Source of the DNA: Helicobacter brantae
GTDB lineage: Bacteria; Campylobacterota; Campylobacteria; Campylobacterales; Helicobacteraceae
Length of the DNA: 64,000 nucleotides
Assembly: GCF_003364205.1 (NCBI RefSeq)
Contig: NZ_NXLV01000002.1
Location: forward strand, 124,001-188,000
Direction of reading: 5' to 3'
Numbering within the stretch: position 1 is the first letter of the stretch; the number at the start of each line of letters is the position of its first letter. Positions 15,997-55,816 of the stretch are shown here, in pieces. Both the position numbers and the translations under genes were made by a program. The notes beneath the pieces were generated by a model. The model did not search any database. It was not told the origin of the DNA and saw only the letters and a list, made by a program, of their open reading frames with translations.

Positions 15997-17865
15997 TCAC
16001 TCCTCCATATAGTTTTTGAGTTGTCGTCCGACTTTGGGGTGTTTGAGCTTTTTAATCGCACTTGATTCAATCTGTCGCACTCGCTCTCGTGTAACATTGA
16101 GTTCTTTTCCAATCTCTTCAAGTGTTCGATCGCTCTCATCATCTAAGAGTCCAAATCTCATTCTAATCACAGCCCTTTCACGCTCATTGAGTTGATCCAA
16201 AATCAAATCAATCTGCCCCCTCAAATCCTCTTTGAGGATATGATCCATCGGACCTATGGCGTTTTTGTCCTCGACAAAATCCCCAAACTTGCCATCATCA
16301 TCGTTGCCTATGGGTGCTTCTAGGCTCACAGGTTCTTTGGTGATTTTGATAACATTTTTGACTTTATCCACGCTTAGCCCCACCTCTTTGGCAATCATCT
16401 CCACATCAGGCTCTTTGCCATACTCTTGGATATGCTTTCGCATAATTTTGTGGATTCGATTGATTGTCTCAATCATATGGATTGGGATTCTAATCGTCCT
16501 TGCTTGATCGGCAATCGCCCTTGAAATGGCTTGGCGTATCCACCAAGTGGCATAAGTGGAGAATTTGAAGCCTTTTTTATACTCAAACTTATCTACTGCT
16601 TTCATTAGTCCGATATTCCCCTCTTGAATCAAATCAAGGAAAGGCAATCCTCTATTGGTGTAGCGTTTGGCGATAGAGACGACAAGTCGGAGGTTTGAGC
16701 GTGCCATTTTGCCTTTGGCTTTGTCTGAGATATTTTTCCCTCTTTTGATTTGCTCTAAAATCTCTTTGAGTTTTTCAGGCTCTAAGTCAAACCCACCCTC
16801 ACTCGCTTCTTTGGTTTGGAAGAGTTTTTTTAGCTCCATATATACGCTTACCATTGTCGCTTCAGGCACAGAAGCAGCGATGTCCTCTCTTGACATATTG
16901 GTGATATTTTCTAGGATTTTTTTGTGATTTTCAATCAATGCTTCATTGAAAAGTGGAAGCTTGTATTCAAGCCTTTTAAGCTCTCTCTCAAATCCATCGC
17001 CATTTTTAAGAGTGTTTTCCATTGCCTTGACAAGTTCGCTGATGAGCTTACTTGTAGGTCCAAGCTCTAGCAAACTTTCTTTGAGAATATGCTTTTTGTG
17101 AGCTAGGAGCAAGATATGCACTAGCTCATCATCTTGAGGGTTTGGCTCTGATTCTAAGACTTTGAGCCATTCTTTTTTGGCTTTTTCAAGGTTTTTGAAG
17201 CTCTCGATAACATTATCAATGCGTTTTTGATCTTTTTTGGAGATTGGTTTTTTCTCATCTCCCTCAACCTCTTCAATCTCCTCGCTCTCCTCTTCTTCCT
17301 CTTCGCCCTCTTCCTCATCATCAAAGTTTTTGAATAGCTCTTTGACTCTTCGCTCACGATTGATTAGGGCATCGCGGTAATCGTGGATAAAGTCGATGAG
17401 GTAGGGGACTGAACAAATCGCATCTAAGATTGTGTTTTCTCCGATTTCAATTTGTTTGCTTAGCATTACCTCTTCTTCTTTGGTGAGTAGTGGGATTTGC
17501 CCCATTTCTCGCAAATACATTCTCACAGGGCTATCGCTTCTGCTCCACTCCAAAAGCTCACGCTCTTTCATAAAGTCAAATTCTTCTTCTAGCTCGCCAT
17601 CTAAAATCTTGCGTTTTTCCTCTTGAAGCTTGGTTTTATCGTGGAGATTTAGGCGTTTGGCGACTTCTGAAGAGCTCATCAACTGCTTGTCGTATTTTTT
17701 TGCCAACTCTTTGACTTTTTTGACTTGGGCAGGGGTGGGAGCTTTTTCTAGGGTTTGAGCGATTTTCTCATAAGAGATGTAGGGGATTTCTTCCTCTTGA
17801 AAGAGTGTTTCTAACTCTTTGATGGGGTCTTTTTTGACTTTTTTTGTCTCTTGTGATTCTTGCAT
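15997..17865 (-). CDS. rpoD: primary sigma factor RpoD (sigma-70)
   Basis: A 622-residue housekeeping sigma factor. Region 1.2/2 includes [13 protein letters not shown], and region 2.3-2.4 is [22 protein letters not shown]-like with the full RPOD box [21 protein letters not shown]. Region 3 ([14 protein letters not shown]) and region 4.2 helix-turn-helix ([20 protein letters not shown]) are intact. A very acidic stretch near residues 185-215 is the variable non-conserved region. It is flanked downstream by the outer membrane protein operon and upstream, head to head, by the accessory island, making it the core-genome border of that island. Confidence 0.97.
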
Positions 17866-17996: not shown

Positions 17997-18013
17997 ATGA
18001 CACAACCTGTCGC
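17997..18013 (+). promoter_or_regulatory. island palindrome copy A
   Basis: Core GACACAACCTGTC at 17999-18011 with GC following; the left outer pair is AT instead of GC. It lies 99 bases before the ravA start, farther than in the other copies, and about 46 bases before a TATAAT box at 18059. It is the leftmost of nine copies and lies at the border of the island, between divergent rpoD and ravA. Confidence 0.7.
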
Positions 18014-18058
18014 AGGTATTAGCTAATTTTCTTGTGTCTATATACCGTGGTGGATGGG

Positions 18059-19570: not shown

Positions 19571-21079
19571 ATGAATGTTTATATTGAAGGAGAAAATGAG
19601 CAGGTTCAGCAAAAGTATGATGAAGCACTTCGGGATTTTCAGAGACAATGTCAAGAGTTAGAGCATCCTTATCAGGAAGAAGAAGCAGAGCTTTATGGAC
19701 GCTCGTTGCGTCTTCAACTTCCCTCAGATAAAAAAATAACCCAAGAGGATATTGAGCTACTAGAAAAATATTATCCCAATCACCCTTCTTTGGCCTTTGC
19801 AAGAGAGAAGCTTCAAGCAGGAGAGAGTATAGAAAATCTTTCAGAACTTCGCAAATTTATTCATAACTCACATCAAGAGAGCTTATCTAAAAAAATCAGC
19901 GAATGGAGAGAGCAAGAGATTGCTAGATTGAAAAGAGAATTTGAAAAACGCATACAAGAATGGTTGGATCGAATTAGGCAGGCACGAGAGACAAAAAAGG
20001 CTTTGAGTGAAGCCCAAGAGTTGTTTGGAGATTTAGAACAAGATGCTCTTGAATCTTTGGATTTATCAAATCTAGGCGGTGGCAAAGAGCCTATCGATAA
20101 AGAAGGAAGGGTAAGAGGTGCAGGCAAAGAAAGAATGGACACAATCATTCGCCTCTTTAAGGAAATAAAAGATTCTTCATCGTTGCAAAAAATTTGTGAT
20201 TTGCTTGGAGAGTTAGAGAAAAAAGAGCAAGAAGAACGCACAAAAAAAATTATGGAGCAAAGAACCTATACTTTTAATGAAGAGATTCTAAGCAAAGAAT
20301 ATAAAGAAGAGATTGTTGGAGTGAGTTTGGGTAGAGATATAGAAAATCTATTGCCTCAAGAGTTGGGTATGCTAGATGACAATGAGCTTGAAATCTTGTT
20401 TTATCTAAAATTTATTCAAAATCGCTTGTTTTGTTTTGAAAAGGAGGGGTATTCTTCATTTTTGAGAGAAGAGCAGATTGAAGAAGAGGTGGAACAACAA
20501 GACGAAGATGAATCGCAAGATAAGGGAGCGATGATTATCTGTGTGGATACAAGTGGCTCAATGATGGGAGATCCAGAACTGATTGCAAAAGCCGCAACAT
20601 TGTTTTTGGCAGCAAAAGCAAAGAAGCAAAAACGCCCCTGTTTTTTGATCAATTTCAGCACTGAGATTGAGTGTATGGAACTTAGCAAAAAGGGAGGAAT
20701 CGTGGAACTTGAGGAGTTTTTATCTAAAAGTTTTAATGGTGGAACAACTATAGCTCCTGCACTAAAAAGAGGGATAGAAAAAATGAAAGAACCACAATTT
20801 GAAAAATCAGACTTGCTAGTTATTTCTGATGGTGGGTTTGGGCTAATATCTGATGGGTTGAGAAAAGAAGTGTTAGAACAACAAGAATTAGATAATCGCT
20901 TCTATCTTTTGGATGTATCTACTTTTGCTAGTGCAAATGATCTTTTTGACAAACATTGGAGATATGATCCAGCAACTCAAGAGATTGATACGCTTTATGA
21001 TAGAAAAAATGCAAAATCTACACAATATTCATCTGATAATGACACAACCTGTCGCACTGATCCTCTAAACTTCCCTTGA
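19571..21079 (+). CDS. viaA: VWA-domain protein, ViaA-like
   Basis: A 502-residue partner of RavA. A long charged helical N-terminal region (residues 1-310) precedes a von Willebrand A domain with the metal-ion site DTSGSMM (326-332), the second metal loop FNGGTTIAPAL and the third ISDGGFG. ViaA proteins bind the AAA+ partner through the VWA side. The last twelve codons are odd: residues 491-496 (DTTCRT) are encoded by palindrome copy B (21041-21053), so either the gene end has been remodelled by insertion of the element or the operator of the next unit overlaps this coding end. GTAAAGTTAGCAATG precedes the start; GGAG lies about a dozen bases upstream. Confidence 0.85.
   Translation: MNVYIEGENEQVQQKYDEALRDFQRQCQELEHPYQEEEAELYGRSLRLQLPSDKKITQEDIELLEKYYPNHPSLAFAREKLQAGESIENLSELRKFIHNSHQESLSKKISEWREQEIARLKREFEKRIQEWLDRIRQARETKKALSEAQELFGDLEQDALESLDLSNLGGGKEPIDKEGRVRGAGKERMDTIIRLFKEIKDSSSLQKICDLLGELEKKEQEERTKKIMEQRTYTFNEEILSKEYKEEIVGVSLGRDIENLLPQELGMLDDNELEILFYLKFIQNRLFCFEKEGYSSFLREEQIEEEVEQQDEDESQDKGAMIICVDTSGSMMGDPELIAKAATLFLAAKAKKQKRPCFLINFSTEIECMELSKKGGIVELEEFLSKSFNGGTTIAPALKRGIEKMKEPQFEKSDLLVISDGGFGLISDGLRKEVLEQQELDNRFYLLDVSTFASANDLFDKHWRYDPATQEIDTLYDRKNAKSTQYSSDNDTTCRTDPLNFP
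21039..21055 (+). promoter_or_regulatory. island palindrome copy B
   Basis: Core GACACAACCTGTC at 21041-21053 followed by GC. It lies inside the 3' end of viaA and its core begins 61 bases before the ATG of the small gene at 21102, the same spacing as in most other copies. It therefore probably controls the small-protein operon 21102-22443. Confidence 0.75.
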
Positions 21080-22554: not shown

Positions 22555-23427
22555 ATGAGTAAAGAACACGACAAACTTGCCACACGCCTTGCCCATACCA
22601 TCGCCAAGCTCAATGGTGGGGAACTTTTGAGTATCGCTGAACTTGCCAAAGAGTTTGGGGTGGATTCACGCACGATACAGAGGGATATCCAAAGACTTTC
22701 ATTCCTTCCCATAGAGAAGAAGGAAGGCAAACTTTTTTTGGCCTCTTATGCTCTAGGGAGTGTGAGCTTTGAGAATCTGAGGGATTTTTTGAGAATGTGT
22801 GGGATTGAAGAGCTTTTCCCTAGTCTTGAAAATAAGGCATTGCAAGATTTGTTTAACCCCAATCTCAACACTTCTCTTCTCATTAACCCTGCAAGTTTTG
22901 AAAAGATTCAGAGTAAGATTTTTGAAGAGCTTCAAGTGGCGATTTTGGAGCACAAGCTGATAAAGTTTCACTACAATCAAAAAGAAAGAAAAATCAAACC
23001 CTACAAACTCAAGCACTATCTAGGACGATGGTATTTGCTCGGAGTTGAAAATGAGAGTATTAAGACCTTTGCATTAGAGAAGATTAAAAATCTCATAATT
23101 TGTTCCCAAGAAGACTTCACTCCTGATGAAGAGCTAGTCAAAGAGATTGAAAAAAATGAATTTAACTTCCTCTCCAAAGATAGAAATGAGATTGTGCTCT
23201 ATATCGACAGCTATGCAATGCCTTACTTTGAGAAACGCAAGATACTGCCCAATCAAAAGATTCTGAGCAGAGATGAGAATGGAATGGAAGTAAGTACGCA
23301 ATCAAGCTATGATGAAGAGATTTTGCGAATCATTCAGCAGTGGATGCCTCATATTCTTATCCTCTCCCCTGAGAGCCTAAAAGAAAGACTCAAAGAGAGG
23401 GTGAGGGGGTATTTGGAGGTTTTGTAG
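22555..23427 (+). CDS. WYL-domain transcriptional regulator (YafY type)
   Basis: A 290-residue regulator. The N-terminal winged helix-turn-helix reads ELLSIAELAKEFGVDSRTIQRDIQRL (about residues 24-50). The WYL domain follows, with the IKFHYNQ strand, KLKHYLGRWYLLG and a C-terminal extension domain. WYL regulators (BrxR, CapW, DriD, PafBC) often control defence or DNA-damage genes and may sense nucleic acids. It is the only sequence-specific DNA-binding regulator recognised in the island and thus the best candidate to bind the nine palindromes; this is inference. The last 51 codons are repeated almost exactly in the chimeric gene at 25145-25534. Confidence 0.85.
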   Translation: MSKEHDKLATRLAHTIAKLNGGELLSIAELAKEFGVDSRTIQRDIQRLSFLPIEKKEGKLFLASYALGSVSFENLRDFLRMCGIEELFPSLENKALQDLFNPNLNTSLLINPASFEKIQSKIFEELQVAILEHKLIKFHYNQKERKIKPYKLKHYLGRWYLLGVENESIKTFALEKIKNLIICSQEDFTPDEELVKEIEKNEFNFLSKDRNEIVLYIDSYAMPYFEKRKILPNQKILSRDENGMEVSTQSSYDEEILRIIQQWMPHILILSPESLKERLKERVRGYLEVL

Positions 23428-23706
23428 TCAAAATTTGTGTGGCTCAACAATGCCTTGTGTGTGAGTAGAGGAGGGCTGATTTTCTGGCAATCTTGCTAAC
23501 CACTCTTTCATTCTCTCCTCTAGTTCTTCTTTATTGATTTGCGTTTCTTCACTTTTTGGATAGGGTGAAGGGGCATAAAAACTAATCTTGCATTTTGTGC
23601 ATTTGCAAAAAATCTCATCTCTAAGTTCATCAAAATCATCAATGACTATTTCCCCTTTTCTTTGGCATTTTGGACATTGCACTTCTAATGTATATGGGAT
23701 AAACAT
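23428..23706 (-). CDS. small zinc-ribbon protein
   Basis: A 92-residue protein with CPKC near the N-terminus and CKCTKC about 25 residues later, a zinc-ribbon spacing, then a PSP-containing linker and an acidic helical tail. The start MF[IP] and the CPKC...KCK...PSP pattern resemble the product of 38659-38847, so the two are probably related. Palindrome copy C lies on its own strand with the core beginning 60 bases before its ATG, and AAAGGAGAG is the ribosome site. It ends directly against the stop of the WYL gene (tail to tail). Confidence 0.65.
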   Translation of the reverse strand: MFIPYTLEVQCPKCQRKGEIVIDDFDELRDEIFCKCTKCKISFYAPSPYPKSEETQINKEELEERMKEWLARLPENQPSSTHTQGIVEPHKF

Positions 23707-23751
23707 TTTCTCTCCTTTACAATCATTGGCTTAGCATTTTCTCATAATCTT

Positions 23752-23768
23752 GCGACAGGTTGTGTCGT
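23752..23768 (-). promoter_or_regulatory. island palindrome copy C
   Basis: On the minus strand ACGACACAACCTGTCGC; core at 23754-23766. The core begins 60 bases before the zinc-ribbon gene at 23706, which also lies on the minus strand. Orientation following the gene is strong support for a directional promoter/operator role. Confidence 0.8.
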
Positions 23769-23812
23769 AAATAAAAATTTTTCAAAAATTTTCACAAAAT
23801 CGATTCTAACCC

Positions 23813-23843
23813 TTGACAAACACTTGGGGGGGGGGGGTATAAT
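23813..23843 (+). promoter_or_regulatory. promoter with poly-G spacer before GTPase gene
   Basis: TTGACA (23813-23818) and TATAAT (23838-23843) are both perfect and are separated by 19 bases, of which 12 form an uninterrupted G tract (23826-23837). Loss of one or two G would give the optimal 17-18 base spacer. Such a tract is expected to slip in replication, switching the strength of this promoter. Confidence 0.8.
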
Positions 23844-23877
23844 ATTTTACTTAAAAGCAAAAAATATTTTTGATACT

Positions 23878-23894
23878 GCGACACAACCTGTCAT
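23878..23894 (+). promoter_or_regulatory. island palindrome copy D
   Basis: GCGACACAACCTGTCAT; core 23880-23892. It begins 62 bases before the GTPase start and lies about 35 bases downstream of the poly-G promoter's TATAAT, so it would sit in the early transcribed region of that promoter as well as act as its own site. Confidence 0.78.
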
Positions 23895-23941
23895 AGTGCA
23901 ATGAAATACTTTTGCTTCAAATTTATTTTTAAGGAGTAGTT

Positions 23942-25072
23942 ATGTCTGCAGAAAAAGATTTTTCAGCTGATGTGAGTGCAATTTTAGGGAAAGCATTTGC
24001 AGAATTTCAAAAGCATATGGAGGAAGACAAAGAGAGCAATCGTCTCAATGTTTTAGTGCTCGGCAAAAGTGGCGTAGGAAAAAGCTCATTGATCAATGCG
24101 GTTTTTGGAAAAGATATGGCAGAAACTGGGCAAGGAAAGCCTGTAACTAGGGGTTTTGAGAAATTTGGAGATGACAATGGCTTGAATATCTTTGATACAA
24201 GAGGAATAGAATCTGAAAATTTTGAAGAGACTATTTCAGATATTGAAAAATTCTTGCAGGAAAATGTTGCCAAGGGGAGTGCAGAGGACCAGATTCATAT
24301 TGCTTGGCTTTGTATCAATGAATCATTGAGAAGAGTTGAGGGCGAAGAGAGGGTTTTGGAAATACTAAAAAAAGAAAAGATACCAACAATTGTGGTGATA
24401 ACAAAAGCACAGCAAGACAAAGATGAAAAAGGTGAGAGTTTTAGAGAGAAGGTTATAGAAATTTTAAAAATCAATCATGAGGATTGTATCCGCACTCGTG
24501 CAGTGGAGGTTTCAGATGATGAAGGAGAAATCAAGAAAATTATGGGAATTGATACTCTTGTAAATAGAAGTTATCTTCTTCTTCCTGAGGGGAAAAAGAG
24601 TGCATTTGCTAAAAAGCAACACTATAACAAGACTATGAGAAGGGAGGCATTAAAAGAAGATGCTTTTTCAAAAGTAAAATATTATACAGCGGCAGCTTCT
24701 ACCGTAGCAGCAACCCCAATTCCTTTCTCTGATTTTGCAATTTTGCTTCCCACACAGGTTGCTATGATTTTGCATATCAGCAAGGTGTATGAAATGGAAA
24801 TCAATCAAGAAAATGCTACAAAACTCATTACTGCCCTAACTGCTGTAGCTGGAGCTGGATACGCAGTAAAAATGGGTGTAGGTGCAGTTCTAAAATTTAT
24901 ACCAGGATTAGGAAGTGTTGCTGGAGGGCTTATCAATGCCACTGTTGCAGGAACTACAACCAAGCTAATGGGTGATGCGTATATTGAATTTTTGGATAAT
25001 AAGTTTATGGACAATGTTTTGACACCAGATTTTGTCTTAAAAAATCTTCCAATTTTTATAGAACAAAAATAG
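23942..25072 (+). CDS. Era-like GTPase with C-terminal membrane (DUF697-like) domain
   Basis: A 376-residue protein. The GTPase domain has G1 GKSGVGKSS (residues 41-49), a switch region with PVTRGF, G3 DTRG and a divergent G4 TKAQ in place of NKxD. The C-terminal part (from about residue 235) has hydrophobic Ala/Gly-rich stretches: VAATPIPFSDFAILLPTQVAMI, AVAGAGYAVKMGVGAVL and PGLGSVAGGLINATVAG. This resembles DUF697/YcjF-type domains that follow such GTPases. It probably acts at the membrane. It is the gene behind the poly-G promoter and palindrome D, so its expression is likely switchable. Its pathway is unknown. Confidence 0.8.
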   Translation: MSAEKDFSADVSAILGKAFAEFQKHMEEDKESNRLNVLVLGKSGVGKSSLINAVFGKDMAETGQGKPVTRGFEKFGDDNGLNIFDTRGIESENFEETISDIEKFLQENVAKGSAEDQIHIAWLCINESLRRVEGEERVLEILKKEKIPTIVVITKAQQDKDEKGESFREKVIEILKINHEDCIRTRAVEVSDDEGEIKKIMGIDTLVNRSYLLLPEGKKSAFAKKQHYNKTMRREALKEDAFSKVKYYTAAASTVAATPIPFSDFAILLPTQVAMILHISKVYEMEINQENATKLITALTAVAGAGYAVKMGVGAVLKFIPGLGSVAGGLINATVAGTTTKLMGDAYIEFLDNKFMDNVLTPDFVLKNLPIFIEQK

Positions 25073-25085: not shown

Positions 25086-25098
25086 GACATAACCTGTC
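25086..25098 (+). promoter_or_regulatory. island palindrome copy E (variant)
   Basis: GACATAACCTGTC, one base different from the consensus core in the central CAACC, with AT following. It begins 59 bases before the chimeric gene, and a TTAAAC -10-like sequence starts 24 bases after it. Confidence 0.65.
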
Positions 25099-25100
25099 AT

Positions 25101-25139
25101 TCTCCTAGATTAAACTTCTGTTTGTAAAAAACTAGGAGA
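25101..25139 (+). other. hairpin that would sequester a ribosome site
   Basis: TCTCCTAG (25101-25108) and CTAGGAGA (25132-25139) are perfectly complementary over eight bases. The 3' arm contains the ribosome site of the chimeric gene, so the structure would hide it. A similar arrangement precedes the gene at 38659 after palindrome H. If transcription starts just after the -10 sequence at 25110 the 5' arm would be absent, so the hairpin forms only on longer transcripts. Confidence 0.4.
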
Positions 25140-25144
25140 AGGAT

Positions 25145-25534
25145 ATGAATCAAAACAAACAATACAAGCTTCAAAAAATGAAACTCTTCACAACCTCTCT
25201 GCTCTTTGTGGCAGGTGGGTTTCTGTATCTTTCTTTTGTGCTAGATTGCCATTGGCTTAGGGCTGTGAGTGAAGCGGCACTTATAGGAGGGATTGCAGAT
25301 TGGTTTGCAGTGGAGGCACTTTTTAGACACCCTCTAGGACTTCCTATCCCTCACACTGCTATTATCCCCAAGAGCAAAGATGAGAATGGAATGGAAGTAA
25401 GCACACAATCAAGCTACAATGAAGAGATTTTGCGAATCATTCAGCAGTGGATGCCCCATATTCTTATCCTCTCTCCTGAGAGCCTAAAAGAAAGACTTAA
25501 AGAGAGGGTGAAAGGATATTTGGAGACGATTTAA
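25145..25534 (+). pseudogene. DUF445-WYL chimeric gene
   Basis: A 129-residue open frame made from two neighbours. Residues 1-78 match the first 78 residues of the DUF445 protein at 37402 with few changes (signal-like hydrophobic start, then GGIADWFAV). Residues 79-129 match the last 51 residues of the WYL regulator at 22555 almost exactly. The joint lies at about 25378-25385, at AGATGAGA, which is present in both parents; a 14-base stretch around it differs by one base. It has a good ribosome site and palindrome E, so it may be expressed, but neither parent domain is complete. Most likely a recombination remnant. Confidence 0.85.
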
Positions 25535-26636: not shown

Positions 26637-26748
26637 ATCGATTGCCCTCTATTTTGTTTTTTGTTGAAATTGCTCATTATATCGTAAAACTAAAGATTGC
26701 ATAGAACTTTTGTGCCAAACCCTATGGGGAAAAATTTGCTCTAAAACC

Positions 26749-26781
26749 TTGACAATGGGGGGGGGGGGATAAGGATAGAAT
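26749..26781 (+). promoter_or_regulatory. promoter with poly-G spacer before zinc-ribbon gene
   Basis: TTGACA (26749-26754), then an uninterrupted G12 tract (26757-26768), then TAGAAT (26776-26781). The spacer is 21 bases, too long for good sigma-70 activity, so the present tract length could be the weak or off state; loss of three to four G would restore 17-18 bases. The same layout precedes the GTPase gene. Confidence 0.65.
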
Positions 26782-26821
26782 ATTGTTCTTAGAAGCAAAA
26801 AATATTTTTTTATCATCTTTT

Positions 26822-26838
26822 GCGACACAACCTGTCGC
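26822..26838 (+). promoter_or_regulatory. island palindrome copy F (perfect)
   Basis: GCGACACAACCTGTCGC, with T before and A after, giving perfect 7-base arms around CAACC. The core begins 64 bases before the start of the gene at 26888. Confidence 0.8.
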
Positions 26839-26887
26839 AATGTAATGAAATAATGATGCTTACAACTAAGACAAATAAGGAGTAAAA

Positions 26888-27178
26888 ATGGGCAGTAGTA
26901 TTTGTGCGGATCCAAGATTTAAGCCATTGTGTCCAGAGTGCGATTCTAACCGTGTAGAGGCATATTCAAATCTATTTGGTTTAATGCAAGGCTATCAATG
27001 TAAGGCATGCGGTCATGCTTTTAGTGGTTATTTTGATGATAATTTTTCAAGTTGGGAATGGTGTAGTTCTTGTGGAAGAGCAGTATATGTTTCTAGTTGG
27101 AATAGTCGTTGTCGAGAAACAAGCGACCATAAACACACTTTAGAAAGAAGAAGGTGGAGAACCAAAGATGAGGTATAG
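26888..27178 (+). CDS. zinc-ribbon protein
   Basis: A 96-residue protein with two zinc-binding pairs of knuckles: CPECDS and CKACGH in the first half, and WCSSCGR with a further Cys (NSRC) in the second half, plus a basic C-terminal tail. This looks like a double zinc ribbon that could bind nucleic acid or a protein. Start ATG after AAGGAGTAAAA. It lies behind the second poly-G promoter and palindrome F. I cannot assign a function. Confidence 0.65.
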   Translation: MGSSICADPRFKPLCPECDSNRVEAYSNLFGLMQGYQCKACGHAFSGYFDDNFSSWEWCSSCGRAVYVSSWNSRCRETSDHKHTLERRRWRTKDEV

Positions 27179-27214
27179 TGGATAAGTAGATAATGTGTGA
27201 GAGGAGATGTTGAA

Positions 27215-27379
27215 ATGTTAGAAAAACAAGAATGTTATATTGACTATCTTGAGCAACTCAAAAATACCCTAAATGACACATCAATAAAATTTGATGAGGC
27301 AATAGAGCAAAGAGTTAAAGATATTGAACCAATTGTCCCTTTCTTACCTCTCAATCATCGGCTTGGCATTTTCTCATAA
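27215..27379 (+). CDS. small coiled-coil-like protein, probably truncated
   Basis: A 54-residue frame with AGGAG eight bases before ATG 27215. The acidic helical sequence (YIDYLEQLKNTLND...) looks like a real protein start, but its last ten residues (PLNHRLGIFS) come from DNA that matches, in reverse, the leader of the zinc-ribbon gene near 23707-23750. The gene therefore probably lost its original 3' end when the duplicated promoter block was joined here. Function unknown. Confidence 0.45.
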   Translation: MLEKQECYIDYLEQLKNTLNDTSIKFDEAIEQRVKDIEPIVPFLPLNHRLGIFS

Positions 27380-27383
27380 CTTC

Positions 27384-27400
27384 ACGACAGGTTGTGTCGT
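27384..27400 (-). promoter_or_regulatory. island palindrome copy G
   Basis: On the minus strand ACGACACAACCTGTCGT, core 27386-27398, with perfect 6-base arms. Relative to most copies the outer pair is A-T instead of G-C on both sides, a compensating change that keeps the symmetry. The expected gene 60 bases downstream on the minus strand is missing, so this is a fossil of the block at 23707-23820. Confidence 0.75.
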
Positions 27401-27443
27401 AAATAAAAAATTTTCAAAATTTCCAAAAATTTGCTCTAAAACC

Positions 27444-27473
27444 TTGACAATAGCGGAGATTTATGTTTAAAAT
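27444..27473 (+). promoter_or_regulatory. promoter of the RelA-like operon
   Basis: TTGACA (27444-27449) and TAAAAT (27468-27473) with an 18-base spacer. The preceding bases TTTGCTCTAAAACC match those before the poly-G promoter at 26749, so this is a related promoter that lacks the G tract. Confidence 0.6.
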
Positions 27474-27611
27474 TAGCCCAATATTTATTAAATAAATCCT
27501 AATACATTTTATATACTGATAAACTGAATATGTTTGCTCTGCTTACAATAAAAATACAATTTGATTTAAGAGCAAAAGAGCAATAAAAATATGAAAAGCG
27601 GAGGGACGAAG

Positions 27612-28817
27612 ATGAATGAGTATGATCCACGGGAGCAAGCCGAGCTGTTTGAAAAAGATAGAAAAAAATATCAATGTTTTGAACTTGTTTTGAGGGCTTA
27701 TATTGAGAAGGAGATTGCACAAAAGCTTAACGCAGAGAGCTTTTCAAAAACTCCCATTATCGAATCACGCACCAAAGAAGTTGAAAGCTTTAGAAAAAAA
27801 ATTTCACGAGAAGACAAGAGGGGGAAATACAAAAATCCGATTGAAGATGTTACAGATTTGGTGGGTCTTAAAGTGATGCCAATCTCATTGCCTGATGAGG
27901 AGATTGTCTATAATCTTTTAAATCAAAAATTTCAAAGCTACAAAATCCAAGAGCATTGCATAGACAAAACACATGAAAAGAAAGAAAATCGTCAGTTTGG
28001 ATATCTTGGTAGACATTTAGTAATCGAATGCAAGGAAGACTTGATAAAAGAACTAAAACCGATCTATAATGATCAAGGTGTTCAAAAACAGATTCAAGAA
28101 TATTTAAGGGGGGGGGGGAGTAAATATAGTCTAGAAGATTTTATTGGATTAAAAGCCGAAATCCAAATCAAAACTCTTCTTCAACATGTGTGGGCTGAGA
28201 TTGAACATGGAGCAAGATATAAGCCTGGAGAAGAGCTTTCAGATGAGAAAAGCAGAACCTTTGACAGATTAGCTGCACTTGTAGAGATCGCTGATGATAT
28301 GTTTAAGGCTCTTATCCAAGAAAGCAGAGAAAAAGAGCGAAAACTCCACGAAAATATAACCACCAAGCATAATGCACCTAAAGAGAGGGTGCAAAACAAA
28401 GAAGGTTTGTCAGAGGTTTTGAATAGTGAAAATATCCACTCTTATCTAACCCACAAAACAATACAGCAACATTTCTCAAATATCAAATCCCAATATTTTC
28501 AAATCGATAATGAAAAACCTGATTTTATCGGTTTATCTTTTGTGGAATTGCTCAAGATTGTTGGATTGAAATGTATTGGAGATTTAGATGAGCTTTTGTT
28601 TGATGATAAACTACTTCAAGAGATGATTAACTGCATAGAAAACGATCATCAATCCAAAAGGAAAAATCACACGATTTATCCTCAAATTCTCATTCTTCGG
28701 ATTTTAATCTGTCTAAAGTATCCCAATCAGATTGACAAAATCAAAGACAAACGCTTTGTCGATCCTCGTTTATTGGAAAATATCAAAAATTACACCATAC
28801 AAAAGGAGTTAACATGA
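27612..28817 (+). CDS. RelA/SpoT-like nucleotide synthetase
   Basis: A 401-residue protein with a (p)ppGpp-synthetase-type domain: SRTKEVESFRKK (residues 52-63), DVTDLVGLKVM (79-89), GYLGRHLVIE (130-139) and EIQIKTLLQHVWAEIEH (183-199). It lacks the HD hydrolase and TGS domains, like small alarmone synthetases, but has a unique C-terminal region (260-401). A G11 tract (28108-28118) encodes Arg166 and three Gly inside the catalytic domain; a change in tract length would shift the frame and stop the enzyme. ATG 27612 is chosen because GGAGGGA precedes it. The product nucleotide is unknown. The next gene overlaps by four bases. Confidence 0.82.
   Translation: MNEYDPREQAELFEKDRKKYQCFELVLRAYIEKEIAQKLNAESFSKTPIIESRTKEVESFRKKISREDKRGKYKNPIEDVTDLVGLKVMPISLPDEEIVYNLLNQKFQSYKIQEHCIDKTHEKKENRQFGYLGRHLVIECKEDLIKELKPIYNDQGVQKQIQEYLRGGGSKYSLEDFIGLKAEIQIKTLLQHVWAEIEHGARYKPGEELSDEKSRTFDRLAALVEIADDMFKALIQESREKERKLHENITTKHNAPKERVQNKEGLSEVLNSENIHSYLTHKTIQQHFSNIKSQYFQIDNEKPDFIGLSFVELLKIVGLKCIGDLDELLFDDKLLQEMINCIENDHQSKRKNHTIYPQILILRILICLKYPNQIDKIKDKRFVDPRLLENIKNYTIQKELT
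28108..28118 (+). repeat. G11 tract inside the RelA-like gene
   Basis: Eleven uninterrupted G in the coding strand (AGG GGG GGG GGG AGT). The reading frame is open at this length; +1 or -1 changes would truncate the protein within its synthetase domain. Typical of contingency tracts in Campylobacter and Helicobacter. Confidence 0.85.
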
Positions 28818-29775: not shown

Positions 29776-31929
29776 ATGTCAGAGCAAATAAAACAAATTG
29801 ATGAGATTATTCTTCACAAGAATGAGCCGTTGGCAAAGGAACTAGAGTCAAAACCCGATGAGATTGCACAAGTCTTGCTTAATGTTGAGAAAATTGTAGC
29901 AAATTCATTGACTTATCCACAAAGCAGATTGACAGATCCAAATTTGGGACATTGGGATATTTATCGTGATAGCGAGGAAAATAAATCAACCATCTCTATT
30001 CCTCTATCACGCCCATTGATGGCAAGAAGCCCAAATTTAGATATCAAAAAAGGAGTGGTTGCAATTGATTTTGGAACGAAAAGCACAACCGTGGCAGTTA
30101 TGGATGAAAGATCTGATAAGCGATTGTTGAGAATTGGTGCTGGAGAGTTTCTGAAAGATGATGCAACAAAAGAGGATTATGAGAACCCAACTTTTATGTA
30201 TTTTGCGGATATTGATTCCTTTTGGAATGATTATCATTCTGGGAAATCTAGACCCCTTACTAGATGGAGAGATTTGAGCGTTGCCTATGAACCCAAAAGA
30301 GAATTTGATAGAAGCAGAGATGGATCTCGTTTTTATCAATATTTTGCAGATTTGAAACAATGGGCAAAAAAGAATACTAAAACACCCACAAACATTGTAG
30401 ATACAAGAGGTATAAGACCTTTAAAGAATTTCGTAGATTGTGGGGAAAAGAACTTCAATCCAATCGAAGTGTATGCCTATTATATTGGACGATATATCAA
30501 TAATATGATGGATGGAATTTATCTACACTATGTTCTTTCTTATCCTGCAAAATATCCCAAAAATGTTAGAGAGAAGCTCAAAGAGAGTTTTGAGAGAGGA
30601 TTGAAAAAGGCCATTCCTTATGCTGTGCTCACTCATCCTGAGAATGGAAAAGACTTTGAGGTGGAGATTTCTGTAAGTGAACCTGCTGCTTATGCAATCA
30701 GTGCTTTGAAAGAATATGGTTTTTATTCATCCAAAGCATTTGAAAAAGATAAAGAGCATTATTATGGAGTTTTTGATTTTGGGGGAGGAACAACCGACTT
30801 TGACTTTGGAGTGTGGAGAAAGTCAGAAGATCGTCGCTATAGTGTGGAGATTGAACATTTTAAATCTGGAGGAAACAATGAGCTTGGGGGAGAGAATCTG
30901 CTTGAATTGTTGGCTTATAGGGTTTTTGAAGATGAAGTCAATCAAAAAGCAATGAAAGAGAAGGGGTGTTCTTTTTCAGAACCTGAAAATTATAAAGTAA
31001 AAGTTCCGGGAGGACTAGAAACTTTAATTTCTTCATCCCAACAAGCTCAAAAAAATACAAAAATTCTAATGGAATTTTTGAGGTCTTTTTGGGAAAATGC
31101 TCATATTTTTGGAGAAAAAACAAATGGTGCATCTTCAGAATTTGAAACAGGGAGTTTGCAATTGACACTAGTGCCAGAAGAAGGAGTCGATTGTGTTGTA
31201 ACTCTTAAATTTGATGCACAAGCAATGCTAAAAGTGCTTGAAGAAAAAATCCAAGAAGGTGTAGATCAATTTTTTAGCATATTTGAGATTGCGTCAGAAA
31301 AAATGCCTGGGTTAAAGAAACTCCATATTTTTCTTGGGGGAAACTCTTCGAGATCACGTCTAGTAGGCGAGGCTTTTAAGAGAGCAATTGAGGACTATGC
31401 CGATCTTGGAGACAAACTCGAGTTTGTTTTGTATCCTCCACTTGGAACTCCAGAATCGGAGAAACTAAGAGAAGAGCTTGGATTAAATAAAGGCACAGAA
31501 GATTATAGTCGTCAGGTAACTTGCAAATCTGGTGTGGTTTTTGGATTGCTTGATGGGTTACCATCAGGAAAAATCAAGGTGATCCCAGAAGTGAGTCAGG
31601 ATGAGGAGGCAAAATTTGAGTTTTATCTAGGTGATGAGGATTTTGGTTGTTTTGAGATAATTTATGATCCTAACGAGGCAGTAGGAAGTGAAAAATATTG
31701 CATCAAGGATTATGTAGGTGACTTTATTTTGTATTACACCAAAGATCCAAGAGCAGGTGAAGGAGGACTTGGAATTGGAGAGACAAGAAGGATGCCTATA
31801 AGTTTTAATACAGAGCAAGAGGATGGAGGGGTTTATGTTGAGATTCTTGGTCCAAGCAAGATTAGGTTGATAGCTAAGAAGAAAGATGGAGAAATCTTGG
31901 AAATCCAAGAGTTTGATCTAGAAGATTAA
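29776..31929 (+). CDS. divergent Hsp70-like ATPase
   Basis: A 717-residue protein of the actin/Hsp70 fold. An N-terminal extension of about 90 residues precedes phosphate-1 loop VVAIDFGTKSTTVAV (near 92-106). Phosphate-2 is GVFDFGGGTTDFDFG (near 330) and the adenosine motif is HIFLGGNSSRSRLV (near 516). The C-terminal part (from about 600) is short and beta-rich, possibly a small client-binding domain. It is not DnaK: the N-terminal extension, insertions and the C-terminal region differ. With the GrpE-like neighbour it would form a private chaperone pair. ATAAGGAGTTAAAATG gives the start. Client unknown; the next gene product is a candidate. Confidence 0.8.
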   Translation: MSEQIKQIDEIILHKNEPLAKELESKPDEIAQVLLNVEKIVANSLTYPQSRLTDPNLGHWDIYRDSEENKSTISIPLSRPLMARSPNLDIKKGVVAIDFGTKSTTVAVMDERSDKRLLRIGAGEFLKDDATKEDYENPTFMYFADIDSFWNDYHSGKSRPLTRWRDLSVAYEPKREFDRSRDGSRFYQYFADLKQWAKKNTKTPTNIVDTRGIRPLKNFVDCGEKNFNPIEVYAYYIGRYINNMMDGIYLHYVLSYPAKYPKNVREKLKESFERGLKKAIPYAVLTHPENGKDFEVEISVSEPAAYAISALKEYGFYSSKAFEKDKEHYYGVFDFGGGTTDFDFGVWRKSEDRRYSVEIEHFKSGGNNELGGENLLELLAYRVFEDEVNQKAMKEKGCSFSEPENYKVKVPGGLETLISSSQQAQKNTKILMEFLRSFWENAHIFGEKTNGASSEFETGSLQLTLVPEEGVDCVVTLKFDAQAMLKVLEEKIQEGVDQFFSIFEIASEKMPGLKKLHIFLGGNSSRSRLVGEAFKRAIEDYADLGDKLEFVLYPPLGTPESEKLREELGLNKGTEDYSRQVTCKSGVVFGLLDGLPSGKIKVIPEVSQDEEAKFEFYLGDEDFGCFEIIYDPNEAVGSEKYCIKDYVGDFILYYTKDPRAGEGGLGIGETRRMPISFNTEQEDGGVYVEILGPSKIRLIAKKKDGEILEIQEFDLED

Positions 31930-37401: not shown

Positions 37402-38595
37402 ATGAATCAAAATAAACAACAGGCACTTCAAAAAATGAAACTCTTCACAACCTCTCTGCTCTTTGTAGCAGGTGGGTTTCTCTATCTTTCTTTTGTGCTA
37501 GATTGTCATTGGCTTAGGGCTGTGAGTGAAGCGGCACTTGTAGGAGGGATTGCAGATTGGTTTGCAGTGGTGGCACTTTTTAGACACCCTCTAGGGCTTC
37601 CTATCCCTCACACTGCTATTATCCCCAAGAGCAAAGATGAGATAGCCAAAAACTTGGGACAATTTATCAAGCTTGAGTTTTTCAGCAAAGAGAATTTACG
37701 CAAATCCACTTTCCTAGAAAAACTCAGTCTCAAAAAAATCATCGAGAGCTTTATCGAGGGCAAAAGCACCTCATTTTCTCTCCACGCCCTCACCCAAGCC
37801 CTAGAGAGCAAAATCCCCACTTTATGTGAGAAAATCAAAGATGAGGAGAAAAATCTAAGATTTTTAGAGCAAGTCAATTTCTCCAAGCTCATCGGAGAGG
37901 GGTTGCACTCTATCCAAAATAGTGCTTCTTATGATGAGATTGTCAAAGAGCTTGTAGAGATTATTGATGAGAAGTTTCAAGGACTAAAGAGCAAGCTAAG
38001 GGAAGAGTTGGTGGGAGATTCTTGGATAAACAAAGGTATAAGCTTTCTCACAAGTTATGATGATAAAGTCATCAATGGGATTGAAGAGTATATTGACAAG
38101 CTCAAAAACCCTAGTGCAAAAGAACTCAATCAACTCAAACTTGCTTTGCAAGACTATATCCACAAGCTTCTCCACGATGAAAGCACTATCAACTCTGTTA
38201 ATGCCAAGATCAAAGGAGCACTGAGTTCCGAGACGAGTGCCAAAATTCTTACAGCAGTTTTAGAGCATATTCAAGAGAATAAAATCATCTCTACTACAAT
38301 TGCTGACATGCTCAAACGCTCACTCCAAAACTTCTGCAATGATACTCGCAAACTCGTTGCCACAGAGCGATGGATAAAAAATAAGATTGTCAATATTGTA
38401 GGAGATTATAGTGATGAGATTGCAAGATTTATTGAAAACACAATCAAGTCTTGGGATAGCCAAGAGATTAGCCAAAAGCTAGAGCTTGAAGTGGGAAAAG
38501 ACTTGCAATTTATTCGAATCAATGGAATGCTAGTGGGTGGAATCATCGGTGGGGTGATTTATGGGATTGAGAGATTTTTTGCTCTAATCTCTTAA
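37402..38595 (+). CDS. DUF445-family membrane protein
   Basis: A 397-residue protein of the DUF445/YjiN family. One membrane segment lies near residues 12-32, followed by the conserved ALVGGIADWFAVVALFRHPLG stretch, then a long helical middle part and a second membrane segment at the end (MLVGGIIGGVIYG). The function of the family is unknown; envelope location is inferred. It follows the patatin stop directly, with AAGGAGTAAAA. The first 78 codons are duplicated in the chimeric gene at 25145-25534. Confidence 0.85.
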   Translation: MNQNKQQALQKMKLFTTSLLFVAGGFLYLSFVLDCHWLRAVSEAALVGGIADWFAVVALFRHPLGLPIPHTAIIPKSKDEIAKNLGQFIKLEFFSKENLRKSTFLEKLSLKKIIESFIEGKSTSFSLHALTQALESKIPTLCEKIKDEEKNLRFLEQVNFSKLIGEGLHSIQNSASYDEIVKELVEIIDEKFQGLKSKLREELVGDSWINKGISFLTSYDDKVINGIEEYIDKLKNPSAKELNQLKLALQDYIHKLLHDESTINSVNAKIKGALSSETSAKILTAVLEHIQENKIISTTIADMLKRSLQNFCNDTRKLVATERWIKNKIVNIVGDYSDEIARFIENTIKSWDSQEISQKLELEVGKDLQFIRINGMLVGGIIGGVIYGIERFFALIS

Positions 38596-38597: not shown

Positions 38598-38614
38598 GCG
38601 ACACAACCTGTCAT
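38598..38614 (+). promoter_or_regulatory. island palindrome copy H
   Basis: GCGACACAACCTGTCAT; core 38600-38612, beginning 59 bases before the start at 38659. A TTTAAT -10-like hexamer (38625-38630) begins 25 bases after the core start, so the palindrome occupies the -35 position of that promoter. Confidence 0.78.
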
Positions 38615-38654
38615 CTCCTTTGGGTTTAATATCAAAAATCCAAAAAGAAGGAGA
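38614..38654 (+). other. possible ribosome-site-sequestering arms
   Basis: TCTCCTT (38614-38620) is complementary to AAGGAGA (38648-38654), the ribosome site of the small zinc-ribbon gene. The layout repeats that at 25101-25139. The 5' arm would be transcribed only from promoters upstream of the palindrome. Confidence 0.35.
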
Positions 38655-38658: not shown

Positions 38659-38847
38659 ATGTTTCCAAGAAGAGTAAGATATGAGTGTCCCAAGTGTGGT
38701 AGAAGAGAGAGCCACACAGAGGGGTGTTTGAAATTTCCAAGATGTTGCAAAAAATGTAAACTTGAGCTAGAAGTCAAAGATGTCAGTTTTAATCCCACTC
38801 CATCTCCCAAAGAGGTGGTGGATATGGTTTTAAATATTTTCAAGTAG
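38659..38847 (+). CDS. small zinc-ribbon protein
   Basis: A 62-residue protein: YECPKCGRRE near the N-terminus, CLKFPRCCKKCKLE in the middle, then an NPTPSPKE linker and a short hydrophobic helix. ATG 38659 follows AAGGAGAAG; an upstream frame extension to 38620 lacks a ribosome site. It resembles the product of 23428-23706, also first behind a palindrome. Zinc binding is inferred; function unknown. Confidence 0.65.
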   Translation: MFPRRVRYECPKCGRRESHTEGCLKFPRCCKKCKLELEVKDVSFNPTPSPKEVVDMVLNIFK

Positions 38848-40104: not shown

Positions 40105-40121
40105 ACGACACAACCTGTCGC
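40105..40121 (+). promoter_or_regulatory. island palindrome copy I
   Basis: ACGACACAACCTGTCGC; core 40107-40119, beginning 59 bases before the start at 40166. TTAAAT (40132-40137) begins 25 bases after the core start, the same geometry as copy H. The following leader (ATTAAATATCAAAAATC) is also alike in both copies. Confidence 0.78.
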
Positions 40122-40165
40122 AACTCTTGGATTAAATATCAAAAATCAAAACAAAAGGAGTAAAA

Positions 40166-51609: not shown

Positions 51610-53520
51610 ATGGATACAGCACAATTCCAACCCATCATCAACTTCATTTGGAGCGTTGCCGATGACCTCTTGCGTGATATTTATGTCAAAGGCAAATATC
51701 GAGATGTGATATTGCCAATGACGGTGATTAGACGACTTGATGCTGTGCTTGAGCCTACCAAAGAAAGAGTGATTAAAACCTATCAGGCCTACAAAGACAG
51801 GCTAGAAAATGTCGATTTGCTCCTCACAGGCTCTCAAGGCAGTGGTATGAGTTTTTACAACTACTCCAAATTCACCCTTCAATCTCTTTGCAATGAGCCA
51901 AAAAATATTCGAGCCAATCTTGAAAACTACCTTGATAGCTTCAGCCCCAATATCCAAGACATTATCTCAAAATTCAAGTTCAAAAACCAGCTTGACACTC
52001 TTGAAGAGGCAGGAATCCTCTTTGAAGTCATTGAGCGATTTTGCTCCCCCAAGATTAATCTCTCCATCAATCCCACTCTAGACCCTCAAGGCAATATCCT
52101 CCAACAAGGGCTAAGCAACCTTGGGATGGGCTATGTCTTTGAAGAGCTGATAAGGAAGTTCAACGAAGAAAACAACGAAGAAGCAGGGGAGCACTTCACC
52201 CCTAGAGAGATTATCCAGCTAATGACTCATCTCATCTTTCTCCCCATCAAAGAGCAAATCCAAGAAGGCTCATTCCTCATCTATGACAATGCCTGTGGAA
52301 GTGGCGGGATGCTTACAGAATCCAAAGACTTCATCACAGACCCTCAAGGGTTAATCCGCTCAAATGCCTCTATCCTCCTCTATGGACAAGAGATAAACCC
52401 TGAAACTTACGCTATCTGCAAAGCCGATATGCTTATCAAAGGCGAAAATCCTGACAATATCAAATACGGCTCAACTCTTAGTGAGGACAAGCTAGGCAAT
52501 CTTCAATTTGACTTTATGCTCACCAACCCTCCCTATGGTAAGTCGTGGGAGAAAGATCAAAAAGCTTTAAATGTGGAGAAAAAAGGAGGCAAAACCTCTT
52601 GCTCTGACCCACGATTCCAAGTGGGAATCACAAGCAAAAGCGATGGGCAAATGATGTTTTTGCTCAATATGGTATCCAAGATGAAGCAAACCCCTCAAGG
52701 CTCTCGTATCGCCTCCGTGCATAATGGAAGCTCCCTTTTCAACTCAGACAGCGGACAAGTGGCTATCCGCAAACACATCATAGAAAACGACTACCTAGAA
52801 GCCATCATCGCCTTGCCTACAAATATGTTCTACAACACAGGCATTCCGACTTTTATTTGGATCATCACCAACAGAAAAAAAGAAGAGAAAAAAGGCAAAG
52901 TCCAACTCATCAACGCCACAAGTGAGAAATATTACTCCAAGATGAAAAAATCCCTAGGCGACAAACAGCACCAAATGGACTCCTCTCATATCGATGCAAT
53001 CACAAAGCTATTTTTGGACTATGCTTGTGAGGGGGATGCCCTAGTGCTAGACAATGAGGACTTTGGCTACACCAAAATCACAATAGAGCGACCCAGAAAC
53101 ACCCAAGACTTGCTAGAAGATGAGAAGTTTAACTCCCTAGCCCAAAAAGAAACCCTCCTAGAAAAACTCACCCACCTAGAATCCCACCCCCAAGACTTCA
53201 AAGACAAAGCCCACTTCCTCTCCTATCTTGGAGTAAAACTCAGCAAAGCCGAAGCCAACCTCCTCATAGACAGCGACAAGACAAGCAACACAGAGAAAAT
53301 CCCTCTCAAAGTCGATATAGACACCTACTATCAAAACGAAGTCAAACCCTATGTGCCAAACTCTTGGATAGATTATGAAAGTGCAAGTGTAGGCTATGAA
53401 ATCCTTTTCAACAAATACTTCTACACCTACACTCCCCCACGAAGTATGGGGGAAATCAAAGCAGAGCTAGAGAGCCTAGAGAGTGAAGTGCAAAGCTTGC
53501 TTAGTGAGATTTTACAATGA
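51610..53520 (+). CDS. hsdM: type I restriction-modification N6-adenine methyltransferase HsdM
   Basis: A 636-residue methyltransferase subunit. SAM-binding region is NACGSGGML and the catalytic motif IV is NPPYGKSW, with LGMGYVFEELIRKF and GEHFTPREIIQLM typical of HsdM upstream. It methylates the recognition site together with HsdS and is also needed for cleavage. The stop overlaps the hsdS ATG by four bases. It is longer than many HsdM proteins because of a C-terminal helical region after residue 490. Confidence 0.95.
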   Translation: MDTAQFQPIINFIWSVADDLLRDIYVKGKYRDVILPMTVIRRLDAVLEPTKERVIKTYQAYKDRLENVDLLLTGSQGSGMSFYNYSKFTLQSLCNEPKNIRANLENYLDSFSPNIQDIISKFKFKNQLDTLEEAGILFEVIERFCSPKINLSINPTLDPQGNILQQGLSNLGMGYVFEELIRKFNEENNEEAGEHFTPREIIQLMTHLIFLPIKEQIQEGSFLIYDNACGSGGMLTESKDFITDPQGLIRSNASILLYGQEINPETYAICKADMLIKGENPDNIKYGSTLSEDKLGNLQFDFMLTNPPYGKSWEKDQKALNVEKKGGKTSCSDPRFQVGITSKSDGQMMFLLNMVSKMKQTPQGSRIASVHNGSSLFNSDSGQVAIRKHIIENDYLEAIIALPTNMFYNTGIPTFIWIITNRKKEEKKGKVQLINATSEKYYSKMKKSLGDKQHQMDSSHIDAITKLFLDYACEGDALVLDNEDFGYTKITIERPRNTQDLLEDEKFNSLAQKETLLEKLTHLESHPQDFKDKAHFLSYLGVKLSKAEANLLIDSDKTSNTEKIPLKVDIDTYYQNEVKPYVPNSWIDYESASVGYEILFNKYFYTYTPPRSMGEIKAELESLESEVQSLLSEILQ

Positions 53521-54836
53521 GTCTGGCACCACAGAGCATTGTCTATAAAGAGAGTGGAATCCCTTGGCTAGGGAAGATTCCTAAGCATTGGGAAATGAGG
53601 AGATTAGCTAGTTTTGGTTCTTTTTCAAAAGGAGGAAATATCTCCAAGGGGGATTTATCAGATAGTGGAAATTCTGTAATCTTGTATGGAGATATTTATA
53701 CAAAATATGAAATTAAAACAAGCAATCTAAAATCCAAAGTGGAAAAGGACTTAGAATCTTTATCAACCCCTATTTATAGTGGAGATATTCTTTTTGCAGG
53801 TTCAGGAGAAACAAAAGAAGATATAGGCAAAGCCGTTGTATATCAGGGAGATGAAAAGGCATTTGCTGGTGGAGATATTATTATTTTTAGACAAGTTGAA
53901 AATAATAGCCTATTCTTATCCTATTGTCTTAATAGTCAATATGCTAAGACATTTAAAGCTATAGAATCAAAAGGGGAAATTATCGTTCATATTTATACCT
54001 CAAATTTGAGAGATTTAAAAATCCCCCTTCCACCCCTTCAAGAACAAAAAGCAATCGCAGATTTTCTTGATAAAAAAACTCATCAGATTGAAGAGTTTAT
54101 CGCCAAAAAGCAAAAGCTTATCACTCTCCTAGAAGAGAAAAAGCAAACCCTCATCAATCAGTGCGTTACCCAAGGGCTTGATTCTTCAATCTCTCTCAAA
54201 GATAGTGGAGTGGAGTGGCTTGGAAAAATCCCTACACATTGGGAGATGAGAAAAATCAAACATATTGCATCGACAAATATAGGATTGGTTTATTCTCCAA
54301 ATGACCTTACTAAGAGCAGTGTCAATAGCGTTGGTATTTTGCGTTCAAACAATATCCAAGGAGGAAAAATTAACTATCTCAATTTGATTTACATCGGTTC
54401 TGAAAAAGTTGGAAAGAAGCAAATTGTTTCAATTGGCGATTTGCTAATGTGTGTAAGAAATGGTAGTGAGGCTCTTGTAGGAAAAACAGCAAAAATTACA
54501 AAAAATAATTTTTCTTTTGGTGCTTTTATGGCAATCATTAGAAGTCCATACAATGATTATCTTTATTGGATTTTTCAAACCGATTTGCTTAGAAAATCTA
54601 TCGCAAACTTTTCTGTTTCTATAGGCATTGGACAGATTTCTCAAGAAGATATAAAAAATTTTATTTTTTCATTCCCTCCCCTTGAAGAGCAAAAGGCTAT
54701 TGCAGAATATTTGGATACGCAGATAGCAAAAATAGATTTGGCAATCTCAAAAATCAAATCCCAAATTAATCTCATCAAAGAATACAAATCCACCCTCATC
54801 TCCGAAGCCGTATGCGGAAGGGTGGGGAGATGTTAA
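53517..54836 (+). CDS. hsdS: type I restriction-modification specificity subunit HsdS
   Basis: A 439-residue subunit with two target-recognition domains, each starting with a W-LGKIP-HWEMR block (residues 13-25 and near 230-245) and each followed by a conserved helix (LPPLQEQKAIADFLDKK and FPPLEEQKAIAEYLD). The two half-sites recognised cannot be predicted here. The repeated blocks at DNA level (TGGCTAGGGAAGATTCC and TGGCTTGGAAAAATCCC) could allow domain exchange. Complete, no truncation. Confidence 0.93.
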   Translation: MSLAPQSIVYKESGIPWLGKIPKHWEMRRLASFGSFSKGGNISKGDLSDSGNSVILYGDIYTKYEIKTSNLKSKVEKDLESLSTPIYSGDILFAGSGETKEDIGKAVVYQGDEKAFAGGDIIIFRQVENNSLFLSYCLNSQYAKTFKAIESKGEIIVHIYTSNLRDLKIPLPPLQEQKAIADFLDKKTHQIEEFIAKKQKLITLLEEKKQTLINQCVTQGLDSSISLKDSGVEWLGKIPTHWEMRKIKHIASTNIGLVYSPNDLTKSSVNSVGILRSNNIQGGKINYLNLIYIGSEKVGKKQIVSIGDLLMCVRNGSEALVGKTAKITKNNFSFGAFMAIIRSPYNDYLYWIFQTDLLRKSIANFSVSIGIGQISQEDIKNFIFSFPPLEEQKAIAEYLDTQIAKIDLAISKIKSQINLIKEYKSTLISEAVCGRVGRC

Positions 54837-55815: not shown

Positions 55816-55816
55816 T

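Follow-up and report, generated by a model that had tools for sequence, protein, structure and literature searches.

The zinc-ribbon gene at 26888-27178, located in a defence-like island of Helicobacter brantae, is probably served by two layered tandem promoters. P1 has a poly-G tract in its spacer and would act as a stochastic bypass, and P2, 40 nt downstream, would be activated by a WYL regulator. This reading is drawn from the sequence of a 64,000-nucleotide stretch of one contig (the window), the rest of the same genome and a set of related genomes. Taken alone, the poly-G promoter belongs to an ordinary, already known class; the novelty lies in its combination with a WYL promoter in one layered arrangement. 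The features are listed in Table 1.

Results and Discussion

Direct reading of positions 26749-26781 confirmed each element that had been assigned to P1 from the sequence alone: TTGACA (26749-26754), a G12 tract (26757-26768) and TAGAAT (26776-26781), separated by a spacer of 2 + 12 + 7 = 21 nt. The homopolymer lies between recognizable -35 and -10 hexamers, and the sequence supports the assignment of P1 to consensus-like sigma-70 promoters with a poly-G tract in the spacer, the contingency type of porA, opc and fetA. In these Neisseria genes the homopolymer tract is also located between the -10 and -35 elements (PMC2791445). Unlike them, there is a second, regulated promoter between P1 and its gene, and the genes concerned belong to a defence-like island instead of coding for surface antigens. 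Runs of at least eight G are enriched in the window (14 overlapping matches versus 0.5 expected; 0/100 shuffles).

P2 (26824-26854) consists of the near-palindrome GACACAACCTGTC followed 12 nt later by the -10 hexamer AATAAT, which does not fit TANNNT; no -35 box is visible. The sequence-only reading had named a different promoter, driving the gene regardless of tract length, as the finding that would count against it, and P2 is a strong candidate for such a promoter. The gene start that follows is preceded by AAGGAG (26877-26882), with the ATG at 26888. No homologue of the 96-amino acid protein was found in the 120 other family genomes, and a plasmid search with the DNA of 26690-27190 produced no match.

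Table 1. Positions of the promoter elements, putative regulator sites and related features in the window
Feature	Position	Strand	Remarks
WYL-type promoter upstream of the MoxR-type AAA gene (18098)	17999-18029	+	
WYL-type promoter heading the run of genes from 21102 to the WYL gene	21041-21071	+	
HTH-WYL-WCX regulator	22555-23427	+	proposed binder of the sites
WYL site	23754-23766	-	47 nt upstream of the TTGACA of the GTPase promoter; faces zinc-ribbon gene 23428-23706 (-)
GTPase promoter, homologue of P1	23814-23843	+	TTGACA-AACACTT-G12-TATAAT; spacer 19
WYL site with -10 AATACT	23880-23910	+	ahead of GTPase gene 23942-25072
WYL-type promoter upstream of the chimeric DUF445/WYL-tail ORF	25086-25116	+	
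Chimeric ORF	25145-25534		start of DUF445 protein (full copy 37402-38595) plus copy of the WYL-gene end
27-bp direct repeat AAAAATTTGCTCTAAAACCTTGACAAT	26730-26756	+	second copy 27425-27451
P1	26749-26781	+	TTGACA, AT, G12, ATAAGGA, TAGAAT; spacer 21 nt; direct sequence reading
P2 site GACACAACCTGTC	26824-26836	+	putative WYL-regulator site in the -35 region; motif match
P2 -10 hexamer AATAAT	26849-26854	+	12 nt after the site
Gene of the 96-aa small zinc-ribbon protein	26888-27178	+	faces P1 and P2
Left half of the third promoter cassette	27352-27456	+	without G tract or homologous -10
WYL site in the left half of the third cassette	27386-27398	-	motif match
G11 tract in RelA/SpoT-domain ORF 27591-28817	28108-28118	+	frame open at G11
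WYL-type promoter ahead of small zinc-ribbon gene 38660-38847	38600-38630	+	
WYL-type promoter ahead of a 78-aa gene	40107-40137	+	

The motif of P2 recurs with a fixed relation to a -10 hexamer. Exact GACANAACCTGTC sites occur 13 times in the H. brantae genome, and at 11 of them, nine in the window, the hexamer at +12 ends in T; the GACANAACCTGTC-N12-(-10) unit is present at these 11 places, and the other two exact 13-mers do not have the -10 T. Across the 121 genomes there are 19 exact GACACAACCTGTC sites, each followed by a +12 hexamer that ends in T. The spacing was counted on 22 sites chosen by the motif alone, irrespective of the -10. Six of an original 28 sites were left out: 27386 and C22:121806 (copies of the site at 23754), the G113 site (a near copy of that in G030) and three one-mismatch sites. 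At offset +12 the final T was found in 22/22 sites, an A at the second base in 18/22 and the complete TANNNT in 13/22, and the mean match to TATAAT was 4.55 of 6, compared to 0.95-2.82 at 20 other offsets. The putative regulator site thus covers the -35 region and keeps a constant offset of 12 nt to the -10, and at most sites the start codon is located 40-51 nt after the motif. The fixed +12 hexamer and the distance to the start codon place the motif at about -37 to -25 of a promoter that would function without a -35 box. Another candidate role, as an invertible-promoter repeat or as a recombination site, was rejected, since the majority of copies come with a -10 of their own and are followed by a start codon at a fixed distance. 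Inspection by eye of the genes behind the sites in several species (26888-27178, 23428-23706 (-), 38660-38847, L326 and L334 among them) showed that many code for small zinc-ribbon-like or short glycine-rich membrane-like proteins. A scan of viral contigs gave 13 matches, which is about the level estimated for chance.

The HTH-WYL-WCX protein encoded in the same genome is the proposed binder of these sites. The full motif pattern was found in 11 of the 121 family genomes (29 sites; reversed control, 2), and a homologue of the WYL protein at E 1e-10 was found in 30. All 11 motif genomes are WYL-positive versus 19 of the 110 motif-negative genomes (Fisher 4.3e-8, ignoring relatedness). When the WYL match was restricted to E<1e-60, a cut set after seeing a gap in the scores, the motif was present in 9/9 genomes (Fisher 4.9e-12, again ignoring relatedness). 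In a tree of the WYL proteins, which leaves out the truncated rows G071 and G109, all 11 motif genomes fall within a single 18-row clade (support 100/98), and the motif label requires four changes on the tree versus 9.1 in shuffles. Yet 7 of the 18 rows of this clade come from motif-negative genomes; three of them (G106, G099 and G097) adjoin the positives G102 and G098, and G099 and G097 are incomplete assemblies. The motif also lies ahead of WYL genes: at 21041 in the window, 0.8 kb upstream on the same strand in genome G001 and, with one mismatch, 0.4 kb upstream in an Acinetobacter plasmid. Autoregulation of the WYL regulator is therefore likely.

The model of the WYL protein is of moderate quality (pLDDT 72.4, pTM 0.38). 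Its best structural match was DriD (E 3e-12), followed by PafBC and then by BrxR and CapW, and PafBC was also its only sequence match in the PDB (E 0.0016). The published PafBC consensus is tTGTCRgtg - 8 nt - TannnT, which counted from TGTC becomes TGTC-N12-TannnT, as found here (PMC5656591). Mycobacterial PafBC, like the system proposed here, combines a WYL regulator with this arrangement and no -35 box; its two HTH domains take up different positions, one at the -26 element and one at sigma domain 4 (PMC11804915). Unlike the regulator proposed here, PafBC is a heterodimer with one half-site. The full palindrome of the present sites suggests a homodimer. Caulobacter DriD, a WYL activator and a homodimer, is the best structural match; its sites are pseudopalindromes that cover a poor -35, with the -10 always equally far away (PMC12340889). 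DriD and the window protein share about 16% identity in the structural alignment, and activation by ssDNA is a feature of DriD. Another regulator, SiwR, binds a palindrome between the -35 and -10 elements and requires the -26 region (PMC10693628). A literature search, with subscription papers mostly outside its scope, found no paper on a Helicobacter WYL regulon or on this motif.

The spacing of the PafBC consensus, together with the structural and PDB matches to DriD and PafBC, leads us to favour, with moderate confidence, a WYL protein that acts as an activator. The fixed distance between site and -10 points the same way, while being compatible with a repressor that occupies the -35 region. 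BrxR and CapW, which are among the structural matches, are WYL regulators tied to defence systems (PMC9122601, PMC9122588), and the palindrome could be an operator of this type: the WYL protein would silence the island, infection would open it, and the transcript from P1 would enter the operator. The GTPase cassette offers a parallel, as its regulator sites at 23754 and 23880 flank the unstable tract on both sides in the way NadR operators flank the nadA repeat of Neisseria meningitidis (PMC2791445). NadR, however, acts as a repressor, and the repeat at nadA is upstream of the promoter; the tract of the GTPase cassette forms part of a promoter spacer, and a separate -10 belongs to each site. 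A steric repressor needs no constant spacing such as the 12 nt found in all 22 sites, no -35 is visible in P2, and the activators DriD and PafBC outrank BrxR and CapW as structural matches, with TGTC-N12-TANNNT being the PafBC consensus. Repression is, in our judgement, doubtful.

A related island and the motif also occur beyond the family. The PADLOC matches judged plausible were those of the WYL and HerA proteins. A MoxR protein of the bpMoxR type (PF20030, E 3e-50) adjoins a vWA protein (VWA_2, E 2.6e-7), and no Pfam match to a beta-propeller, the third component of the MoxR-vWA-beta-propeller ternary conflict system, was found among the scanned subset of island ORFs. From its sequence we take the product of 29776-31929, a protein without a Pfam match, to be Hsp70-like. 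A plasmid of Acinetobacter piscicola encodes a WYL protein with 35% identity beside a HerA-like ATPase (35% over 932 amino acids); also encoded there are two relatives of the 29776-31929 protein (33% and 31%) and one protein related to that of 31940. In this plasmid island a start codon follows 46 nt after an exact motif whose +12 hexamer is CAAAAT (exact 13-mer, 0/300 shuffles); another motif has one mismatch, and its +12 hexamer is TATATT. Acinetobacter was the only one of the six non-Helicobacter WYL neighbourhoods examined in which the exact motif was found; those of Diaphorobacter, Sulfuricurvum, two Sulfurospirillum plasmids and the Moraxella phage Mcat5 had none. Two further gene groups were observed in the window: the gene at 15997-17865 (-), by our reading presumably that of the housekeeping sigma factor, lies immediately next to where the island's MoxR/vWA part begins, and 51610-58867 holds type I restriction-modification-like genes that we take to be HsdM, HsdS and HsdR.

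The poly-G tracts were surveyed in the complete assembly (1.73 Mb, 37 contigs) as runs of at least nine G, which gave 90 tracts, 87 outside the window and three inside. Their lengths are G9 (1), G10 (5), G11 (53), G12 (20), G13 (8) and G14 (3); for two tracts that stop at contig ends, including the sole G9, the lengths are lower bounds. An exact TTGACA is present at most 12 nt upstream of 8 of the 90 tracts, while 30 further 13-nt bins together hold 10. Seven of the eight tracts also have a downstream TANNNT, and the eighth is in an open frame without a -10. A genome search with TTGACA-N(0-12)-G8+-N(0-12)-TANNNT found seven places (reversed pattern, 0), three of them on the contig of P1, so within this genome the design is not the rarity it had been taken for. 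The seven promoters precede the genes of an 88-amino acid protein (followed by an AAA ATPase), the GTPase, the 96-amino acid zinc-ribbon protein, a GmrSD-N protein, an FMN oxidoreductase, a protein of at least 490 amino acids and an inorganic pyrophosphatase. The pattern is present in 6 of 59 genomes of the genus, family and order, H. brantae included. One homologous promoter of the same design and with near-identical flanks was found in two genera, with a G12 tract in G010 (C61:131-158, L076) and a G9 tract in G015 (C15:1546-1570, L077). This difference, which concerns a promoter other than P1, is the sole sign of length variation. No tract of eight or more G was found at the promoter of the loci of GTPase relatives; the G8 of one such locus (L304) is more than 100 nt upstream and apparently within another gene.

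Poly-G tracts were also seen in other settings. The G11 tract in the RelA/SpoT-domain ORF brings the number of unstable tracts in 4.3 kb of the island to three. Twelve opposite-strand tract pairs, with members about 105-150 nt apart, are present in the genome at C1:48.8k, C9:33.3k, C11:23.5k, C11:172.1k, C13:17.4k, C14:16.1k, C16:3.3k, C32:32.0k, C34:55.3k, C35:66.1k and the starts of contigs C9 and C11 (two pairs at contig ends). In several pairs one tract is just within the start of an ORF and its partner is in the upstream region.

The sequence-only reading had suggested that G12 possibly leaves P1 off and that shorter tracts would activate it. The spacers of the seven promoters are 14, 19, 19, 19, 20, 21 and 22 nt; none is within 16-18 nt, so the usual spacing rule does not tell which state these promoters are in. 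The spacer of 22 nt belongs to TTGACA-N10-G12-TATAAT (C35:44599-44632, L075) ahead of the inorganic pyrophosphatase gene, which indicates that long spacers need not mean off. Inorganic pyrophosphatase is a housekeeping gene in which phase variation is unexpected. The gene directly before it was identified by eye as, presumably, an adenylate kinase gene, and read-through from that gene may therefore feed the pyrophosphatase. As for activation by shortening, a 17-nt spacer at P1 requires G8, and only one of the 90 tracts in the survey of at least nine G is below G10, the one cut by a contig end.

These observations bear on the sequence-only account of the gene, in which P1 is its main promoter, G12 the off state, and a contraction to about G8-G9 the switch that turns it on. 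The hexamers with their 21-nt spacer agree with it, as do the porA, fetA and opc precedents (PMC2791445) and Helicobacter canadensis, where promoter-associated G tracts vary in reads and 29 tract-associated coding regions include five promoter candidates (PMC2823697). H. brantae resembles H. canadensis in having poly-G tracts in promoter regions, and differs from that set in its 90 tracts and in seven promoters of one exact design. This account is improbable, given that all seven promoters fall outside 16-18 nt with one facing the pyrophosphatase gene, that P2 is a strong alternative promoter candidate, and that G8-G9 is at or under the lower edge of the lengths found in a survey of at least nine G.

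The layered arrangement of P1 and P2 has a sister in the GTPase cassette. Parts of one divergent promoter cassette align at 23720-23940 (GTPase), C22:121.8k (outside the window), 26730-26890 and 27352-27456, and within an 80% identical block TAGAAT (P1) and TATAAT (GTPase promoter) are aligned to each other. P1 does repeat the GTPase promoter design, but because both lie in aligned copies of the same cassette the two island promoters are homologous and not independent, as had been supposed. What stands of the contingency reading is the sigma-70 type promoter with the tract in its spacer, not independence, rarity or the rule that G12 is off and shorter tracts are on. The P1 copy is the right half of the cassette only; a left half lies 0.6 kb downstream, and a common 27-bp repeat ending in TTGACAAT is found in the two halves. 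The chimeric ORF at 25145-25534, whose copy of the WYL-gene end is 154 bp long and 93% identical, is a recombination scar.

So much rearrangement (the 27-bp repeat, the half cassette at 27352-27456 without a G tract and the chimeric ORF) could mean that cassette duplication and recombination left P1 behind as a by-product that has no role today. We find this distinctly improbable, since TTGACA and the -10 are intact beside an unstable tract and the same design occurs at promoters of the genome that do not derive from this cassette. A reading of the motif as an RNA hairpin, with a GACA/TGTC stem and a CAACC loop, in the 5' leaders of transcripts from P1-like promoters would account for a loop about as conserved as the stem and for motifs downstream of P1-type promoters in three places, yet it is very improbable because the -10 is at a fixed 12 nt also where no such promoter lies upstream and the motif is linked to one WYL clade.

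Conclusions

The layered reading of P1 and P2 can be stated as follows. The strength of P1 would drift among cells through slippage of the G12 tract in its sigma-70 spacer, and its stochastic, tract-length-dependent transcription would pass through P2. The HTH-WYL-WCX regulator would most likely activate P2 in the way that PafBC and DriD do: by bridging its site and sigma, the regulator would allow RNA polymerase to use a promoter that has no -35 box. Transcription from P2 would thereby depend on a signal, and the same regulator may act at eight other sites in the window, one of them heading its own gene run. Through the P1 bypass some cells would make the zinc-ribbon protein, or the GTPase in the case of the sister cassette, without the inducing signal.

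A broader and more tentative proposal, possible but less than probable, is that a WYL activator of the DNA-damage type, using the grammar GACANAACCTGTC-N12-TANNNT (its core TGTC-N12-TANNNT common with mycobacterial PafBC), runs a conflict island of HerA, Hsp70-like, GTPase and zinc-ribbon proteins in Helicobacteraceae and Acinetobacter, and that in H. brantae poly-G promoters immediately upstream bypass sensing in a random part of the cells as a bet-hedged pre-arming.

The arrangement bears on how defence-like islands are kept silent and later turned on. Here, one short grammar of promoter elements predicts, across genera, which targets a single WYL regulator has. A phase-variable promoter ahead of a WYL promoter would join sensed and random control of one gene and, if the proposal is true, the way in which PafBC and DriD use sigma extends to Campylobacterota.
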